64,000 nucleotides of DNA from Vibrio atlanticus (lineage in GTDB: Bacteria; Pseudomonadota; Gammaproteobacteria; Enterobacterales; Vibrionaceae). Shown piece after piece: positions 986 to 58,859 of this stretch (positions are counted from its first letter, which is position 1; every line of letters starts with the position of its first letter). The notes beneath the pieces are model-generated. The model was given only the letters and a program-made list of their open reading frames with translations. It was not told where the DNA came from and did no database searches. Both the position numbers and the translations under genes were made by a program. The stretch spans positions 744,001-808,000 of the forward strand of contig NZ_AP025460.1 of assembly GCF_024347315.1 (NCBI RefSeq), written 5' to 3'.

Positions 986-1795
986 ATGAAACGTTTAATT
1001 GTCGGCTGGCTGGCCACTGTGCTCAGTGCTGCGAGTTATGCCCAAGTTGCCCCTATATCTCAATGGCAATGCGACATGATGAAAAAGAACAATGTCTTGA
1101 GTAGCGGTGCGCCTGTTGGTTGTGATCGACTATCCAAAGTGGATTTCGATTTCATTAATTTCAAAGGGGAAACGCAACAGGGCAATATGATCGTGCTGGA
1201 TGTTATTGCGACTGCCGTTGAACAAATCTTTTCAGATCTTAAACAGCGCAATTTCCCTCTTCATTCCGCTCGCCTAATGCGTGAATTCAGAGGGGACGAC
1301 AACGCCTCAATGGACGCGAACAACAGCAGTGCGTTTAACGCTCGTCCTATTACAGGCGGAGGTGGTTGGTCGAAGCATGCTTATGGTGTGGCAATCGATA
1401 TCAACCCAGTTCAAAACCCTTTCTTAGAGTTTGATAACAACGGAAGAATCACGGTAAAGCCTTCACAATCTGCGACTCGCTATGTGAACCGTACTCGTTT
1501 TCGCGCGCGTGATGAAATAGAACGTAGTGGCATGGCAGAAGATGTGGTGGAGCTTTTCGCCCATCACGGATTTATGATCTGGGGAGGGGATTGGAATAGC
1601 CCAGTCGATACCCAACATTTTGAGGTCGGCTCAAGAAAATTCGTTAACCAACTGCTTTCTAAACCACAACCTGAAGCCAAAGTGTTATTTGAGCGTTACG
1701 TCGAATCTTATCGTCAATGTTTTGAACAGAATCAAGGCGAGGGAGCAGAAAAAGCTCGTGCTATCTGTGCAAAGAAAACAGTTGGCACTTTTTAG
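986..1795 (+). CDS. secreted M15-family (VanY-like) peptidase
   Basis: I place the start at ATG 986 because it gives a clean signal peptide (MKRLIVGWLATVLSAASYAQ); an upstream ATG at 932 in the same frame would add 18 hydrophobic residues and is less likely. The mature protein carries the M15 zinc-peptidase pattern: WSKHAYGVAIDI (SxHxxGxAxD, supplying a His and an Asp ligand) and a C-terminal WGGDW...DTQHFE with the third ligand His. M15 enzymes of this type cleave D-Ala-containing or L-Ala/D-Glu bonds in peptidoglycan, here presumably in the periplasm. Length (269 aa) fits the M15C/VanY-like group. The exact bond cleaved cannot be told. It is followed by a terminator-like hairpin, so it is probably transcribed alone. 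Confidence 0.8.
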   Translation: MKRLIVGWLATVLSAASYAQVAPISQWQCDMMKKNNVLSSGAPVGCDRLSKVDFDFINFKGETQQGNMIVLDVIATAVEQIFSDLKQRNFPLHSARLMREFRGDDNASMDANNSSAFNARPITGGGGWSKHAYGVAIDINPVQNPFLEFDNNGRITVKPSQSATRYVNRTRFRARDEIERSGMAEDVVELFAHHGFMIWGGDWNSPVDTQHFEVGSRKFVNQLLSKPQPEAKVLFERYVESYRQCFEQNQGEGAEKARAICAKKTVGTF

Positions 1796-1864
1796 TGCTA
1801 TGTTTATCTAGAACCGTTTGTGTTTTAGCAAGTTAAACTCGCTTCAGGTGTGTTTTGAATCGCT

Positions 1865-1893
1865 AAGGTCAGCGCTCGTCGTTGGCCTTTTTT
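1865..1893 (+). terminator. rho-independent terminator after the M15 peptidase gene
   Basis: AAGGTCA pairs with TTGGCCTT (one G-T pair) around a 10-nt loop and is followed by a run of T. The rest of the gap 1796-2100 shows nothing further that I can support; the leader of the next gene lies there. Confidence 0.6.
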
Positions 1894-2100
1894 GTATTCA
1901 TTTCTTCAATAGAACACTGAGCATTGAAAAGGTTATTGGGTATCCATTAGTCAATAATCGATAAGCGAATGCAGCGCAAAGTCATCGGTTTGTCATCGAA
2001 AAACTCATAGCGTTAACGTTATGTGAGAACCATTGCTGGTGGGGGAACTATTTGCCGAATCGCCAGTATTATTAGTGAACTGATCACAACGGACCAACTA

Positions 2101-3981
2101 ATGAAAAAGATACCTTTGGCTCTAACTCTTTTAAGCACTCTACTTTTTTCACAATATTCTTTGGCTACAGACACTTCACACACCACTCAAAATCCGACCT
2201 ACGAACTCGATGGTAAGGCGGTATTAGGGCGTACAGAGAATGTGTACCTATCTAGCGTTCAAGGGCTAAAAGACGTTCCTTTCATTGGTAAAATCGATAC
2301 CGGTGCAGAAACCACTTCTATGCATGCGGAGGACATTCATGTGAAGAGCACGAATGCTGATTATAGAAATCTTAAAGACAAAGAGTTGATGGCGGCGTTA
2401 ACCGAAGACCTGTTGAACAATTCTGATGTTGATTACGATGATTGGGATGGTAGCACCTTTGCGAAATATGAAGCTGTGGTCTCTTTCAAGGTTCAAAACC
2501 CGCGCACGGGAGACATGGTATTAATTGAAGCGCCTTTAGATCGTGTCAGCATGATACGTAGCCGCACCAGCAGCACGCCTTTGCTTCGCCCTACTGTCAA
2601 AATGTCGCTCACCATTGCGGACCAAGAATTAAAAACCGACGTTAACCTGACCGACAGAAGCCACTTTTCTGCGCCAGTATTGATCGGCAAAACCTTCCTT
2701 GCGGATAACGCACTGGTGTTTGCTGGTTACGACTATTTGCAGGAGCAGGAAAACGCGACGGTTGTTGGCCGAAAAGAGGTGATGTCTATCTCGGGAATGG
2801 CGATGAACGCGACCTTCTCATTAAAAAATCGCTACAGCATTCTTCATGCGAAAGACATCGATGTAGATAAGAAGAACAGTGAAGTGACGTTTGATATGTT
2901 CGACAACGATGGTAAGCAGAAAGAGATGACACTGCCATTAGTTCGTATGTTAAGTGTAGGTGGTAAAAAGAGACCTCTGGTATATGTACCAGTCCAACTC
3001 GATGAAAACACAACCAAAGACGTTCTGGTGTACCTACGTGACCGCTCAAGTAGCGTGTCACAGTTGAGATTTGGTACAAGCACCGCAAGCGAGCTTTTTA
3101 TGATTGACACCAGTGCTGAGAATATTCTTTCAGAAGGATCTGAGAATTTCAGTGAGGTCACGAAAAAGACTGAGCCACTGATTATCTCACCGGAAGAAGA
3201 TATCACATTAGATGGTTTCCCTATGAAGGCTGTTGCTTCATTTACTGTCAACACGCCTTTGTTGAAGGTCGACAGTTTTGAAATGACAGGTAAAGGCAAA
3301 GAGGCTTCCGTTGAATTTTATCTTACAGATGTAAATGGTGAGAAGCAGAAGATAACAAAGCCAATTATTAAGAAGCTTAAGGTCGGTGATGATACTCGCC
3401 CGGTTGTAAGTGGTGAGTTTTTGGGAGCTGGTAAAGTTCGCCAACAAGAGTTTGCTATCGATGTGCTGGATAGCAATGAAAAAGAAGCGTACTTCATTCT
3501 AGGTAAGAAGATGGCGAAAGATGGGGTATATGTGAATACTCGATCTGATTATCTTTTGAAATCGGAACCTTTGTTTAAAGTTGGGCATATAGAAGTTGTT
3601 GAAGTCAACGGCATGAAGTTCCCGGCCAAGTTGGATACTGGGGCGGATGTGAGTTCCATGAACGCAGTCAACATCAAACGATTTAAGAAAGACGGCCAAG
3701 ACATGGTGAGCTTTACCTATCAAAACAACCAAGGCGATAAGCAAGATTTCACCAAGCCAGTGATTGATGTAATGCGCATTAAAGCTAAGAAAGGCGAGAA
3801 GGTGAACATTCGCCCAGTGGTAGAAATGAAAGTGAAGCTAGGCGATTTAGAGAAAGAGGTGAGGGTAAACCTTCAAGATCGCTCTCGCTTTGAATACAGC
3901 ATGATCCTAGGTAAGAACTTCTTGAAGCACGGCGCAGTAGTCAGTAGCGATGAAGATTACTTACTGGGCGATATGGAGTAA
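2101..3981 (+). CDS. four-repeat RimB-like (ATP-dependent zinc protease family) periplasmic protein
   Basis: Start chosen at ATG 2101, which begins a signal peptide (MKKIPLALTLLSTLLFS...SLA); an in-frame start at 2023 would bury it. The 626-residue protein consists of four tandem copies of the RimB/PF05618 fold, a retropepsin-like domain. Each copy ends with a block of the form RPxV..v.L....LxDRS.....xLGxxFL......Dyll. Copy 1 has KIDTGAETTSMHA with D66, and copy 4 has KLDTGADVSSMNA with D512. Copies 2 and 3 (beginning near VMSISGMAMNATFSLKN and LDGFPMKAVASFTVN) have lost the DTG loop. Single-domain relatives are annotated as ATP-dependent zinc proteases, although the fold is aspartic-protease-like and no zinc motif is visible. 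I infer a periplasmic, possibly dimer-like, protease or binding protein. It is a single gene with no clear terminator seen. Confidence 0.75.
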   Translation: MKKIPLALTLLSTLLFSQYSLATDTSHTTQNPTYELDGKAVLGRTENVYLSSVQGLKDVPFIGKIDTGAETTSMHAEDIHVKSTNADYRNLKDKELMAALTEDLLNNSDVDYDDWDGSTFAKYEAVVSFKVQNPRTGDMVLIEAPLDRVSMIRSRTSSTPLLRPTVKMSLTIADQELKTDVNLTDRSHFSAPVLIGKTFLADNALVFAGYDYLQEQENATVVGRKEVMSISGMAMNATFSLKNRYSILHAKDIDVDKKNSEVTFDMFDNDGKQKEMTLPLVRMLSVGGKKRPLVYVPVQLDENTTKDVLVYLRDRSSSVSQLRFGTSTASELFMIDTSAENILSEGSENFSEVTKKTEPLIISPEEDITLDGFPMKAVASFTVNTPLLKVDSFEMTGKGKEASVEFYLTDVNGEKQKITKPIIKKLKVGDDTRPVVSGEFLGAGKVRQQEFAIDVLDSNEKEAYFILGKKMAKDGVYVNTRSDYLLKSEPLFKVGHIEVVEVNGMKFPAKLDTGADVSSMNAVNIKRFKKDGQDMVSFTYQNNQGDKQDFTKPVIDVMRIKAKKGEKVNIRPVVEMKVKLGDLEKEVRVNLQDRSRFEYSMILGKNFLKHGAVVSSDEDYLLGDME

Positions 3982-4120
3982 CACCTAAATTTATCTAATT
4001 TCTATCGGTTCAACTTCTTCATCAGTAACTGAACTGGCTGCGTTAATTATCAAGTAGGTAACACAAAGAGCTTTTGCTCTTTGTGCTTTCTATATTCTGA
4101 TTAGATAGCTTATCTATAAG

Positions 4121-5434
4121 TTAAAGCTCAATTTCAGTGATGAGTGGTGATTGTTTAAGGAAGTGCTTACATCTAGCCACAACGATTTCACGGTATCGGT
4201 TTAAATAAGGTAATAGTGAATCAGAAGTAGGAGTGACGAGAGATATAGCATCATCAATGTTGTTTATAATGTCATTTGCGATCTTTACTAGGCTCTGTTG
4301 AAGCAATTTTGGTGAAATACCACAATCGTCAGCAAACTCTACAAGTTGGTAGGCATTAATAGAATCTGAGTCAAATTCATCCCCAATTGCCATCGCAAGA
4401 TCCTGCTCAAATTCAGGGTACATCCTTACATTGACTAGATCGTAAAGTGGCGTTGGTGTTAAGCCCGATTTTTGGACAAAGAAACTGAAGTTTTTGCCAT
4501 GTGCATCTGCGTTATAAATGCAGAGATTGAACATTGCCCACTTTAGGATCGCTAGTTTTGCCGCTAATGGGTTTTCACATTGCTCTGTTACCGAAAAAAG
4601 TCGGGTGAAGCTGACACCATCACGAATATGACTGACATCTCTTTGTTTACCTAAGTTTCGTTCATACTTTCTATCGACACCTAGGTTACAAGCTTGACAG
4701 GCATCGATCATATGCCTTCGTTTCACACTTGTTGAGCTAAATAGCTTTCGATCAAATCTCTCTACAATTAAGGCTGGAAATTGGTCAAAATACCGCAACT
4801 CAACATCAGCAACATCTAGTTCAACTAGCTTCGCTAACTTCATCGTCACAAATTCATTTATGACAAGGTGTTGTTGGTCATTTTTTTCGAACTTCACAAT
4901 ATGAGTTGAGCATAGTTCACCCTCTCCAAACCCTAAGTTTCCATCGATAGATAAAACGTTTAGCTTAGATTGAACCCCCGCTACTGATAGTCTTGGTTTT
5001 CCTTCCCATATTTCTAAATACCAAAGCTCAGGGTCAGATAGTTTCTTAATTAATTCACTATCGTTGATTGGGTTGAAAGAGGTTTCAGTTTGAACTGGAG
5101 AAACACCTTCAGATAAGAACATCATTGCACCTGATGTATCTGTTCCAATACCACCAACTTGTGCAAATACGTTTGAACGTGATACGCCAAGAAAGTCGAT
5201 CAAATAATCTAACCCTTTATTTTCAGGGAGCAAATTCTGTAAAAACCTTCTGATATTGACTGATGGTATATCAGAGTTAAATGGAAGGTGTGGCGATATG
5301 GGAAACCCATTATCAATCCAATCTTGCTTGTAGATTACAGATAGAGCATCACTTTCTTTACTCAGTGATAGCTTGCCTATGACTTGCTGGCTATAAACTA
5401 TATCGAGGATGTATTGATTAGACCCAGACGTCAT
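4121..5434 (-). CDS. hipA: HipA-family serine/threonine kinase toxin
   Basis: A 437-residue HipA kinase. The N-terminal subdomain has the family's LPENKGLDYLIDFLG stretch. A P-loop-like RLSVAGVQSKLNV lies near residues 150-165. IVERFDR follows, and the catalytic NADAHGKN (Asp and Asn of the kinase active site) is near residue 310, with the metal-binding YDLVNVR just after. In E. coli HipA phosphorylates GltX and causes growth arrest; other HipA proteins have other targets, so the substrate here is unknown. It overlaps the upstream hipB gene by 17 bp, the usual antitoxin-first arrangement. All key residues appear present, so it should be active. The 140 bp between its stop and the RimB-like gene hold a weak hairpin (AAAGAGCttttGCTCTTT, near 4066-4083) that may terminate either gene. 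Confidence 0.9.
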   Translation of the reverse strand: MTSGSNQYILDIVYSQQVIGKLSLSKESDALSVIYKQDWIDNGFPISPHLPFNSDIPSVNIRRFLQNLLPENKGLDYLIDFLGVSRSNVFAQVGGIGTDTSGAMMFLSEGVSPVQTETSFNPINDSELIKKLSDPELWYLEIWEGKPRLSVAGVQSKLNVLSIDGNLGFGEGELCSTHIVKFEKNDQQHLVINEFVTMKLAKLVELDVADVELRYFDQFPALIVERFDRKLFSSTSVKRRHMIDACQACNLGVDRKYERNLGKQRDVSHIRDGVSFTRLFSVTEQCENPLAAKLAILKWAMFNLCIYNADAHGKNFSFFVQKSGLTPTPLYDLVNVRMYPEFEQDLAMAIGDEFDSDSINAYQLVEFADDCGISPKLLQQSLVKIANDIINNIDDAISLVTPTSDSLLPYLNRYREIVVARCKHFLKQSPLITEIEL

Positions 5435-27558: not shown

Positions 27559-27925
27559 TGGTGGAGCTGGCGGGAGTTGAACCCGCGTCCAAAAATCATT
27601 CATCATTGGTACTACATGCTTAGTCGATCTTTAATTTCACCAGCAACCTGCGAACCGACACGCTAGTTAAAGGCTAACCTGAATTGTTATTCGCGCTTTT
27701 CCTCTCAGGTGGGAGAATCCGCGCTAGCTAGTTTGGGTTTGATCTCTTATTGGTCCCCGTCTTACGAGCGGAAGCTAGGGTAAGAGAGCTCTGAGCAGGT
27801 TATTAAGCTGCTAGTGCGTAGTTTTCGTCGTTTGCGACTATTTTTTTGCGGCTTTTAACGTGGCCAACCGCCCCACGGCATGCACCTCAGACTTCAAAAT
27901 TCCTGTCGAATCCTAAATCAGCCCC
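27559..27925 (-). ncRNA. ssrA: transfer-messenger RNA (tmRNA)
   Basis: A 367-nt tmRNA. The 5' end GGGGCTGATTTAGGATTCG and the 3' end GGGTTCAACTCCCGCCAGCTC-CACCA form the tRNA-like domain. The tag frame, read from about 27832 leftwards, encodes ANDENYALAA and stop, the known gamma-proteobacterial tag. tmRNA rescues stalled ribosomes together with SmpB, whose gene lies just upstream on the same strand. Its 3' end is a frequent integration site, and the integrase gene lies immediately beyond it. I could not find a second copy of the 3' end in the window that would mark the island's far border. Confidence 0.97.
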
Positions 27926-56717: not shown

Positions 56718-56744
56718 AAACAGCCAGCATAAGGCTGGCTGTTT
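56718..56744 (-). terminator. terminator of the NifU-like/GGGtGRT operon
   Basis: AAACAGCCAGC-ataag-GCTGGCTGTTT, a perfect 11-bp stem, with an A-run on the left. Confidence 0.9.
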
Positions 56745-56844: not shown

Positions 56845-57834
56845 TTATGCGTTCAAAGATTCGCTCACCGCCACAGCCAATGCAACTGTCGCACCGACCA
56901 TTGGGTTGTTACCCATACCTATGAAGCCCATCATTGCCACGTGAGCCGGAACAGAAGAGCTACCTGCGAACTGAGCATCAGCGTGCATTCTGCCCATGGT
57001 ATCTGTCATGCCGTAAGACGCTGGGCCTGCTGCTACGTTATCTGGGTGCAATGTTCGACCTGTACCGCCGCCTGAAGCAACTGAGAAGTAAGGTAAACCT
57101 TGGCGAGTACGTTCTGCTTTGTAGATACCCGCAACAGGGTGTTGGAAGCGCGTTGGGTTGGTTGAGTTACCCGTAATACTTACATCAACTTCTTCTCTGT
57201 GCATGATTGCCACACCTTCACGTACATCATCAGCGCCGTAACACAAGATCTCTCCGCGAGGGCCTTGTGAGAAGCGGCGACGTTCTGTTTCAACAAGCTC
57301 GCCTGTTTGGTAATCGTATTGAGTGCGTACATAGGTAAAACCATTGATGCGAGAAATTAAGTAAGCTGCATCTTTACCTAGACCATTTAAGATCACTTTC
57401 AATGGGTTTTGACGCGATTTGTTGACGTTTAGCGCAATTTTAATCGCACCTTCAGCTGCAGCAAAAGACTCGTGACCCGCAAGAAAGGCGAAGCAGTGGC
57501 TCTCTTCATTGAGAAGACGAGCGGCTAGCGCACCATGTCCGATACCGACTTGGCGTTGCTCAGCAACACTGCCGGGTTTAGTGAATGCTTGAAGGCCTTC
57601 ACCAATGATATTTGCAGCTTGTTCTGCGCTGGTTGCTTTGCGAAATAACGCCAGTGCTGAGCCAAGAATATAAGCATCGGCAGCGCTTTCAAAAGCAATA
57701 GGTTGGGTGTCCATCACCATGGCTTTTGGGTCGACATTGTGTGATTTACAGTATTGGTTCGCTTGCTCTAAAGAGTCGAAGTTCATTTCTGCCAATACGC
57801 GAGTTACTGATTCATTCAATTGAGTGTTCATCAT
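56845..57834 (-). CDS. GGGtGRT family protein
   Basis: A 329-residue protein containing the name-giving SGGGTGRTLHPDNVAAGPASYGMTDTMGRMHADAQFAGSS near residues 258-296. It is a well-conserved family of unknown activity, usually encoded next to a NifU-like scaffold as here (24 bp gap), which suggests a role with iron-sulfur clusters or a metal cofactor. The start is one of two consecutive ATGs behind GAGGAAAG. It is the second gene of a riboswitch-led operon. Confidence 0.85.
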   Translation of the reverse strand: MMNTQLNESVTRVLAEMNFDSLEQANQYCKSHNVDPKAMVMDTQPIAFESAADAYILGSALALFRKATSAEQAANIIGEGLQAFTKPGSVAEQRQVGIGHGALAARLLNEESHCFAFLAGHESFAAAEGAIKIALNVNKSRQNPLKVILNGLGKDAAYLISRINGFTYVRTQYDYQTGELVETERRRFSQGPRGEILCYGADDVREGVAIMHREEVDVSITGNSTNPTRFQHPVAGIYKAERTRQGLPYFSVASGGGTGRTLHPDNVAAGPASYGMTDTMGRMHADAQFAGSSSVPAHVAMMGFIGMGNNPMVGATVALAVAVSESLNA

Positions 57835-57857
57835 ATCTTTCCTCTAAATTGGCAAAA

Positions 57858-58550
57858 TTATTGTTGGCGTGGGTTAATGGTGGTTACGGCTTCATCGAAG
57901 CGACCGTAAGTTCCCATAGCAAGGTCTGCAGCTTCATTGGCTGACATACCTTGATTAATCGCCTTCATCATTTTGCCGAGGTTGAGATATTCGTAGCCAA
58001 TCACTTCGCTATGGTCATCAAGTGCAAGCTTGGTCACGTAGCCCTCTGCAAGCTCTAGGTAACGTACGCCTTTTGCAGCAGTTGAATAGCTGGTACCTAC
58101 TTGGCTACGTTGTGTTTGACCTAGGTCTTCCAATGCAGCGCCAATTTCTAGGCCGCCTTCAGAGAATGCAGATTGAGTTCGACCGTAAACAAACTGCAGA
58201 AAGATTTCACGCATCGCTACGTTGATCGCATCACACACCAAGTCAGTATTCAGAGCTTCAAGAATGGTTCTTCCTGTGAGGATTTCGGCTGCCATCGCGG
58301 CTGATTGAGTCATGCCTGAACAACCAATCGTTTCGATTAGTGCTTCTTCGATGATGCCGTTTTTTACGTTCAGCGTTAGTTTTGCTGCACCTTGTTGTGG
58401 TGCACAAGTGCCGACGCCATGGCTTAAGCCAGAAATAGCGATAACGTCTTTTGGGCTAACCATAGCGCCTTCAACTGGAATTGGCGCTGAAGTGTGCAGA
58501 TCACCCCTTTGAATAGGGCACATTGATTGAATTTCTGAAGAGTAGTGCAT
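57858..58550 (-). CDS. NifU-like iron-sulfur cluster scaffold protein
   Basis: A 230-residue protein with the NifU N-terminal fold. Cysteines occur in GVGTCAPQQGAAKL, IETIGCSGMTQSAAMAAEIL and DLVCDAINVAM, at positions used by IscU/NifU scaffolds for cluster assembly. It is not the housekeeping IscU (different sequence, longer C-terminus). It is paired with the GGGtGRT gene. The 433-bp upstream region contains a fluoride-riboswitch-like RNA and a promoter. Confidence 0.85.
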   Translation of the reverse strand: MHYSSEIQSMCPIQRGDLHTSAPIPVEGAMVSPKDVIAISGLSHGVGTCAPQQGAAKLTLNVKNGIIEEALIETIGCSGMTQSAAMAAEILTGRTILEALNTDLVCDAINVAMREIFLQFVYGRTQSAFSEGGLEIGAALEDLGQTQRSQVGTSYSTAAKGVRYLELAEGYVTKLALDDHSEVIGYEYLNLGKMMKAINQGMSANEAADLAMGTYGRFDEAVTTINPRQQ

Positions 58551-58740
58551 AATGTTTTCTCACAGTTAGAGTCATTGAAGACCTAGAGTGTTGAGAAAAC
58601 AGGACGTGTTGGAAGAGGTGCGGCTAATTCACTACAGATCTTGAGTATCGATAATCCAAAGGTGTCATGAAGCTCGGTCTTAAGAGACTAAGCCCATTTC
58701 AAAATGGAGGAATAGCGATACATCCAACAGTATTACCTGT

Positions 58741-58820
58741 TTTCGATTCTGTAGGAGTCATTAGCACTGTTCGAAAGAACGGGCGGTTGAAGCAAAAGCT
58801 TAGGTGGAACCCCATCACCT
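58741..58820 (-). promoter_or_regulatory. candidate fluoride (crcB-type) riboswitch leading the NifU-like/GGGtGRT operon
   Basis: On the minus strand the RNA reads AGGUGAUGGGGUUCCACCU, then AAGC-UUUU-GCUU, AACCGCC, GUUC-UUUC-GAAC, and GCUAAUGACUCCUACAGA. P1 is AGGUG with CACCU. GGGGUU can form the pseudoknot with GACUCC. AACCGC and UAAUGACUCCUAC are hallmarks of the crcB motif. An extra small hairpin between P1 and the core is unusual. It lies about 190 nt before the first gene. A possible hairpin (CCATTT-tg-AAATGG) follows at about 58692-58705. Confidence 0.6.
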
Positions 58821-58829
58821 GATGGCTAT

Positions 58830-58859
58830 AGATTAGATCTTTATCACACTTTCATGCAA
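58830..58859 (-). promoter_or_regulatory. promoter upstream of the riboswitch
   Basis: TTGCAT (complement 58854-58859), 18 bp, TAATCT (complement 58830-58835) on the minus strand, ending about 10 bp before the riboswitch. A moderate sigma-70 match. Confidence 0.5.

Follow-up and report, generated by a model that had tools for sequence, protein, structure and literature searches.

Here, we identify a two-gene operon of Vibrio atlanticus, encoding a NifU-like protein and a GGGtGRT protein, as the target of a predicted fluoride riboswitch of the RF01734 class. The operon lies in a 64,000-nucleotide stretch of contig NZ_AP025460.1 (forward-strand positions 744,001 to 808,000), hereafter the window, to which all coordinates refer. 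The literature searched, which was short of subscription papers and did not include the gene list of Baker et al. 2012, which may name these genes, turned up neither this pair as a fluoride-riboswitch target nor any paper tying GGGtGRT to fluoride or enolase. The operon very probably has a role in fluoride tolerance. We suggest further, at about even chances, that the two proteins form an iron-dependent, fluoride-tolerant substitute for enolase that is induced by fluoride in Vibrio, a reading in which we infer the enzymatic step. An iron-dependent enolase substitute would account at once for the riboswitch, for the iron response of the pair and for the losses of enolase described below. The aptamer and the two genes are placed as follows.

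58745-58828, minus strand: fluoride riboswitch aptamer (RF01734)
58808-58813, minus strand: 5' strand of the aptamer pseudoknot, GGGGUU
58754-58759, minus strand: 3' strand of the aptamer pseudoknot, GACUCC
57858-58550, minus strand: NifU-like gene, 230 amino acids
56845-57834, minus strand: GGGtGRT gene, 329 amino acids, the proposed catalytic partner

A preliminary description of the window, made from the sequence alone, had read the leader of this operon as fluoride-riboswitch-like, and a covariance search with the Rfam crcB model (RF01734) bears this out. Model positions 1-64 aligned end to end with 58828-58745 on the minus strand at 48.3 bits, against a gathering cut-off of 34 bits (E 2.7e-10, computed over both strands of the 64-kb window), and no further match was found elsewhere in the 5.1-Mb genome. 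The location given earlier stands, and its span of 58741-58820 is corrected to 58745-58828. The P1 helix (AGGUG/CACCU), the GGGGUU/GACUCC pseudoknot and the 3' conserved strand (AUGACUCCUAC) all lie where that description had placed them; the expression platform (58744-58551) went undescribed there. The window leader shares with other members of the class a match over the whole model, as well as P1, the pseudoknot and the conserved strand on the 3' side. In an alignment of 37 Vibrio leaders, P1 is paired in 177/185 cells and the pseudoknot in 215/222; with the divergent leaders set aside (33 left), the pseudoknot shows zero double change and 300/300 shuffles reach its count, so that it adds no covariation there. 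Altogether, the sequence evidence makes it nearly certain that the leader contains a real fluoride riboswitch aptamer and highly probable that its expression is induced by fluoride. Riboswitches of this class turn expression ON with fluoride, and by analogy the window switch would act in the same direction.

The link between riboswitch and operon is tight in Vibrio. In a sample of 196 Vibrio genomes, searched with RF01734 under strict filters, a match was present in 103 genomes and above the cut-off in 98. GGGtGRT is encoded by 86 of the genomes, and in all 86 a riboswitch match adjoins the NifU-like gene. The 106 riboswitch loci of the sample divide into these 86, 11 on CLC-type genes (eight of which were run against Pfam; L037, L045 and L095 were classed from the start of their sequence), one on crcB, one on an enolase gene, and seven below the cut-off (L100-L106), which are doubtful and were assigned to no gene. 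The enolase gene under a fluoride riboswitch is that of a single genome (G142; 38.8 bits). The idea that the pair substitutes for an exporter was ruled out, because CrcB/Fluc is also present in 84 of the 86 GGGtGRT carriers, the two others being G117, an incomplete assembly, and G130. Where the riboswitch precedes a CLC-type gene (11 genomes), a CrcB/Fluc match is always lacking; exporter type and regulon type go together in Vibrio. Among 369 genomes drawn from the same bacterial class, GGGtGRT scored above the cut-off only in the window's own; a weak match in G501 (18.5 bits) runs antisense to a long open reading frame and was dropped. Two Vibrio loci are irregular: in G178 the NifU-like and GGGtGRT sequences share one frame of 415 amino acids, by a deletion fusion or an assembly fault, and in G150 the NifU-like frame is shortened to 142 amino acids, with a full-length GGGtGRT match.

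Beyond Vibrio, the riboswitch recurs before the two genes in distant taxa. Among the best 80 of 589 GGGtGRT loci from named genomes, all 80 have both genes on one strand, the NifU-like gene first, with 18-513 bases between it and GGGtGRT; four of these loci rest on partial matches, three of them at contig ends. RF01734 searches covered the whole genomes of 79 of the 80 loci. The riboswitch lies just upstream in six (Vibrio, Aliivibrio, Photobacterium, two Shewanella and Motilimonas), and the remaining loci have none upstream by position, three of them (L163, L191 and L212) being without DNA before the NifU-like gene. Scans of L165 and three other loci gave no fluoride riboswitch match, despite a weak match somewhere in the L165 genome, and no other regulatory RNA scored above its gathering score before the pair in 13 loci of anaerobes. 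Four of ten GGGtGRT records from a plasmid collection were examined: a riboswitch is present in one Vibrio and two Persicobacter (Bacteroidota) replicons and absent from one of Subdoligranulum. In one Persicobacter locus (L241) it stands directly before the NifU-like gene; in the other (L242; Persicobacter psychrovividus pPP1, 1184-4960), fluoride riboswitch, CLC-type transporter gene, NifU-like gene and GGGtGRT gene form one run. A sample of Clostridia adds one adjacent match among 103 GGGtGRT carriers. In this genome (G684), the aptamer before the pair overlaps a terminator-like hairpin, and the order over L224:569-6195 is riboswitch, NifU-like gene, GGGtGRT gene, a second match resembling a fluoride riboswitch (33.2 bits, short of the cut-off), two genes with MutS domains and, further on, a cobalamin riboswitch; MutS genes are known targets of the crcB motif (PMC2864571). 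Thus, with Gammaproteobacteria, Persicobacter and G684, the same pair stands under fluoride riboswitches in three phyla and with at least two kinds of expression platform.

In Vibrio, the platform appears to act on translation. Five strands, beginning at the 3' end of the aptamer, make up the proposed switch.

58749-58754, minus strand: strand A, CUACAG, 3' end of the aptamer, shared between the ligand-bound fold and strand D
58736-58744, minus strand: strand B, GAAAACAGG, putative anti-sequestor and partner of E in the ON state
58632-58637, minus strand: strand D, CUGUAG, putative anti-aptamer, complementary to A
58592-58603, minus strand: strand E, CCUGUUUUCUCA, predicted partner of B (ON) or F (OFF)
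58554-58562, minus strand: strand F, UGAGAAAAC, which contains the Shine-Dalgarno sequence of the NifU-like gene (ATG at 58550)

These strands recur among the Vibrio leaders listed, with E complementary to both B and F, and are recognisable by eye in the leaders of Shewanella and Aliivibrio. Tests were made on 37 representatives of the 86 Vibrio leaders. Against shuffles (p <=0.05), the A:D duplex stood out in 35/37 leaders and B:E in 33/37; in a blind test E:F did so in only 2/37, perhaps because the best partner of the short purine strand often lies elsewhere. Strand D comes before E in all 37. In a MAFFT alignment of the same leaders, A:D is paired in 216/222 cells (21 with double changes), B:E in 320/333 (15) and E:F in 267/296 (22), paired counts that were reached by 0/300 column shuffles, a procedure that keeps relatedness in. 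When the strands of the ligand-bound aptamer were barred from pairing and the accessibility of the Shine-Dalgarno region was compared, locking the aptamer raised accessibility by >0.1 in 24/37 leaders versus 3% of shuffled platforms. A consensus scan found no terminator on the minus strand between the aptamer and the first gene. On these grounds the Vibrio platform is probably translational, and the switch is likely to be both translational and ON with fluoride. We suggest that, when fluoride is absent, A pairs with D, B is trapped and E covers the Shine-Dalgarno strand F; when fluoride is present, A would be held in the pseudoknot, B would pair with E, and F would be free for translation of both genes. 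Published transcriptional members of the class use fluoride-gated strand displacement at the aptamer 3' strand (PMC11077080), and the Vibrio platform appears to do likewise; by contrast, Vibrio members would act on the Shine-Dalgarno sequence instead of a terminator, and they control the NifU-like/GGGtGRT pair. Further down the window leader there are ATGAC repeats that are variably kept in close relatives (ATGACACC in 18/30, ATGACTC in 7/30).

The idea that this pair stands in for enolase draws on the distribution of both in the Clostridia sample, which comprises 216 genomes; enolase was counted as present where PF00113 matched with E no higher than 0.001. Both GGGtGRT and enolase occur in 61 genomes, only GGGtGRT in 42, only enolase in 105 and neither in 8, where 26.2 would be expected if the two were independent. 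Thus, GGGtGRT is found in 42/50 enolase-negative versus 61/166 enolase-positive genomes (Fisher p 4.3e-9, with ancestry left in and for one bacterial class). If data were simply missing, the absences of GGGtGRT and enolase would be expected to coincide and not to alternate. The four enolase matches with in-frame stops among those listed are all in GGGtGRT carriers, and weak matches (best E above 1e-120) make up 19/61 in carriers versus 6/105 in non-carriers. A tree was built from 65 GGGtGRT proteins, 36 of them from genomes without enolase and 29 from genomes with it; along this tree the enolase state switches at least 13 times, and well-supported branches force 5 of the switches. Fluoride riboswitch matches are rarer in genomes without enolase (4/50 versus 42/166 Clostridia, p 0.0096, sub-cut-off matches counted), as expected if the main target of fluoride is gone. 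One enolase-negative carrier, G668, has as its best-named relatives Eubacterium sp., Lachnospiraceae (including strain NE2001) and others.

Gene neighbourhoods point the same way. Among the 14 largest clusters of neighbouring genes, two are the pair itself and one (12 loci) is an antisense frame over the pair; each of the others is shared by at most 8 loci, which look, judging by title, like relatives within Bacteroidales. Enolase (3 loci) is the only neighbour noticed in unrelated taxa in this set: its gene lies beside the pair in L168, whose genome (G226) has two enolase matches, and in L213, and near the pair in L194. In G794, enolase is 12 kb from the pair.

Published data supply both a need for such an enzyme and a connection to iron. 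Enolase is inhibited by fluoride and is often placed in fluoride-riboswitch operons (PMC11139923), including one of Enterobacter cloacae (PMC5533749). Many gut and rumen bacteria are without enolase, and its replacement is described as not known (PMC11026938, PMC11187502, PMC11257099, PMC6118326, PMC3558957). When enolase-positive and -negative Butyrivibrio were set side by side in the Hungate1000 study in search of a complementing gain, no substantial insight was reported (PMC6118326); such a comparison would miss a substitute that both groups already have. In an iron-limitation comparison of Bacteroides thetaiotaomicron, the values listed for the pair are −12.8 to −11 fold (PMC10434189). In Clostridium pasteurianum, GGGtGRT is higher with iron (7.1-fold early, 2.2-fold late), as is the NifU-like protein (2.4-3.7-fold early, 1.6-2.9-fold late), and enolase is higher without iron (4.1-4.8-fold early, 1.8-4.0-fold late) (PMC5395762).

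The proteins themselves are distinctive. The preliminary description had named a NifU-like/GGGtGRT operon that encodes no known fluoride exporter, and this is what we find: the window GGGtGRT protein matches PF14057 at 561.8 bits, its partner is a divergent NifU_N protein, and the single CrcB/Fluc match in the genome lies outside the operon. The match of the NifU-like protein to PF01592 (NifU_N) is barely above threshold, at 22.3 bits versus a cut-off of 22; by the same cut-off its relative in L242 reaches 23.8 bits and that in L224 stays below, at 21.2 bits. Its scores are well under the equivalog cut-offs for NifU (27.7 versus 187.9) and IscU (22.5 versus 192.4). The protein matches IscU-type folds, the weak sequence match being confined to residues 39-113. 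In alignments of 25 sequences drawn from several phyla, columns average 80% identity for the NifU-like protein and 79% for GGGtGRT, and three cysteines are invariant in each (C49, C77 and C106 in the former; C29, C114 and C198 in the latter). C77 aligns with an IscU cysteine; C49 and C106 are shifted or fall outside the alignment. The NifU-like protein resembles IscU/NifU scaffolds in fold and in the weak residue 39-113 match, and differs from them by its low equivalog scores, an extra C-terminal part and its GGGtGRT partner in all of the best 80 loci. For GGGtGRT, a search of PDB sequences gave no relative with an E-value under 0.28. Judged by sequence, GGGtGRT is not a member of the enolase family, and our claim is limited to enolase-like working; the likeness to classical enolase (PF03952/PF00113) is confined to the proposed reaction.

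Iron-sulfur enzymes such as aconitase and others dehydrate hydroxy acids, and enolase performs a dehydration on a magnesium mechanism that fluoride inhibits. We suggest that the two operon products together do the work of enolase while fluoride blocks the ordinary enzyme. The NifU-like protein, with its three invariant cysteines, would provide GGGtGRT with an iron-sulfur cluster or hold one for it, and GGGtGRT would dehydrate 2-phosphoglycerate to phosphoenolpyruvate (PEP) with iron-sulfur chemistry like that of aconitase in place of the magnesium mechanism. In its broadest form, to which we give slightly less than an even chance, the proposal is that the pair is the enolase missing from gut and rumen anaerobes: a second enzyme, unrelated to the first, that depends on iron-sulfur chemistry, resists fluoride and has no fluoride switch in most strict anaerobes, where the classical gene would have decayed many times, and that marine bacteria keep as a riboswitch-controlled emergency copy. 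The nearest known system is the FRM operon of E. cloacae (ppaC, uspA, eno, gpmA, crcB, orf5249), a riboswitch operon that supplies fluoride-inhibited enzymes and an exporter (PMC5533749). The run of CLC-type, NifU-like and GGGtGRT genes in P. psychrovividus looks alike; however, the FRM operon makes more of the ordinary enolase, whereas the Vibrio pair is proposed as a non-homologous, fluoride-tolerant substitute. The preliminary description had expected the leader to link fluoride stress to metal-cluster biology and to give a clue to GGGtGRT function. The link of the pair to fluoride holds, in Vibrio, other Gammaproteobacteria, Persicobacter and G684, and the clue to function emerges too; it leads towards central glycolysis, by way of an enolase substitute, more than towards the assembly of metal clusters as such.

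Several observations weigh against an enolase substitute under fluoride control. Neither protein has a known activity, the predicted model of GGGtGRT has no significant fold match, and the enolase models (PF00113/PF03952) match neither the window GGGtGRT, which is hit by PF14057 only, nor, among the families listed, 25 of its relatives. In Clostridia, 61/103 GGGtGRT carriers keep an enolase match, 8/50 enolase-negative genomes are without GGGtGRT, incomplete assemblies may count as enolase losses and, among the matches listed, a single genome (G226) has enolase next to the pair. Shuffled labels give about 21.6 enolase-state changes on the GGGtGRT tree versus 13 observed; enolase-negative genomes are therefore clustered, and the Fisher p overstates the evidence. 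No adjacent riboswitch match accompanies the pair in 102/103 Clostridia carriers, and none precedes it in the gut Gammaproteobacteria L195 and L201. With regard to the switch, the window's own leader gains just 0.10 in accessibility (0.09 to 0.19; shuffle p 0.19), 13/37 leaders show no gain >0.1, including the divergent L064, L093, L097 and L099, and in L093 accessibility falls by >0.1, the sole such case in the 37. Finally, many further proteins of C. pasteurianum also shift with iron (PMC5395762).

Some of these observations would suit other explanations. The small computed gain of the window's own platform is what a chance or decayed aptamer without function would give; we regard this as hardly credible in view of the E-value of the match and of its retention, with compensatory changes, in all 86 Vibrio carriers of the sample. 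A broader alternative is that the operon answers some other stress, with the riboswitch as one of several switches for a general low-growth programme and the enolase association as a matter of ancestry. The clustering of enolase-negative genomes on the tree is in line with it, as is the lack of a nearby riboswitch in most anaerobe carriers. Control of the pair by riboswitches in three phyla, through two different platforms, and the unbroken link in the Vibrio sample argue otherwise, and we consider it quite unlikely.

Two further alternatives accept the fluoride link and differ in what the pair does. It could be an iron-sulfur maintenance or repair module that rebuilds clusters damaged by fluoride stress or by the accompanying acid or metal disturbance, as the IscU-type fold and invariant cysteines of the NifU-like protein and the lower expression in B. 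thetaiotaomicron and C. pasteurianum when iron is limiting might suggest. Such a module leaves the enrichment of GGGtGRT in enolase-lacking genomes unexplained, and the only partner common to all of the best 80 loci is the other member of the pair; we hold it to be unlikely. The co-distribution and the iron data also fit another glycolytic bypass that spares enolase, for example from 2- or 3-phosphoglycerate to pyruvate without PEP. PEP would still be required, e.g., for transport by the phosphotransferase system, a point raised for enolase-less Endomicrobia (PMC11257099), and such a bypass seems very unlikely to us.

If the pair is indeed an enolase substitute, this would account for the strong conservation and the iron regulation of the GGGtGRT family in gut bacteria. 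It would also enlarge the repertoire of fluoride resistance by one enzyme and provide an example of a riboswitch that points to enzyme function. A named two-gene candidate also makes the question of the missing enolase testable by a simple assay.

The surroundings of the operon can be described briefly. Upstream of it lie yebG and a LysR regulator gene, and downstream a MarC-type gene. Two further transcription signals are suggested.

58830-58859, minus strand: possible promoter, TTGCAT-18-TAATCT, read from the sequence
56718-56744, minus strand: intrinsic terminator after the operon, from a consensus scan

The possible promoter is absent from the hits of a consensus scan whose hit count equals chance. 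Elsewhere in the window, at 27559-27925 on the minus strand, there is a transfer-messenger RNA gene (RF00023, 256.7 bits).

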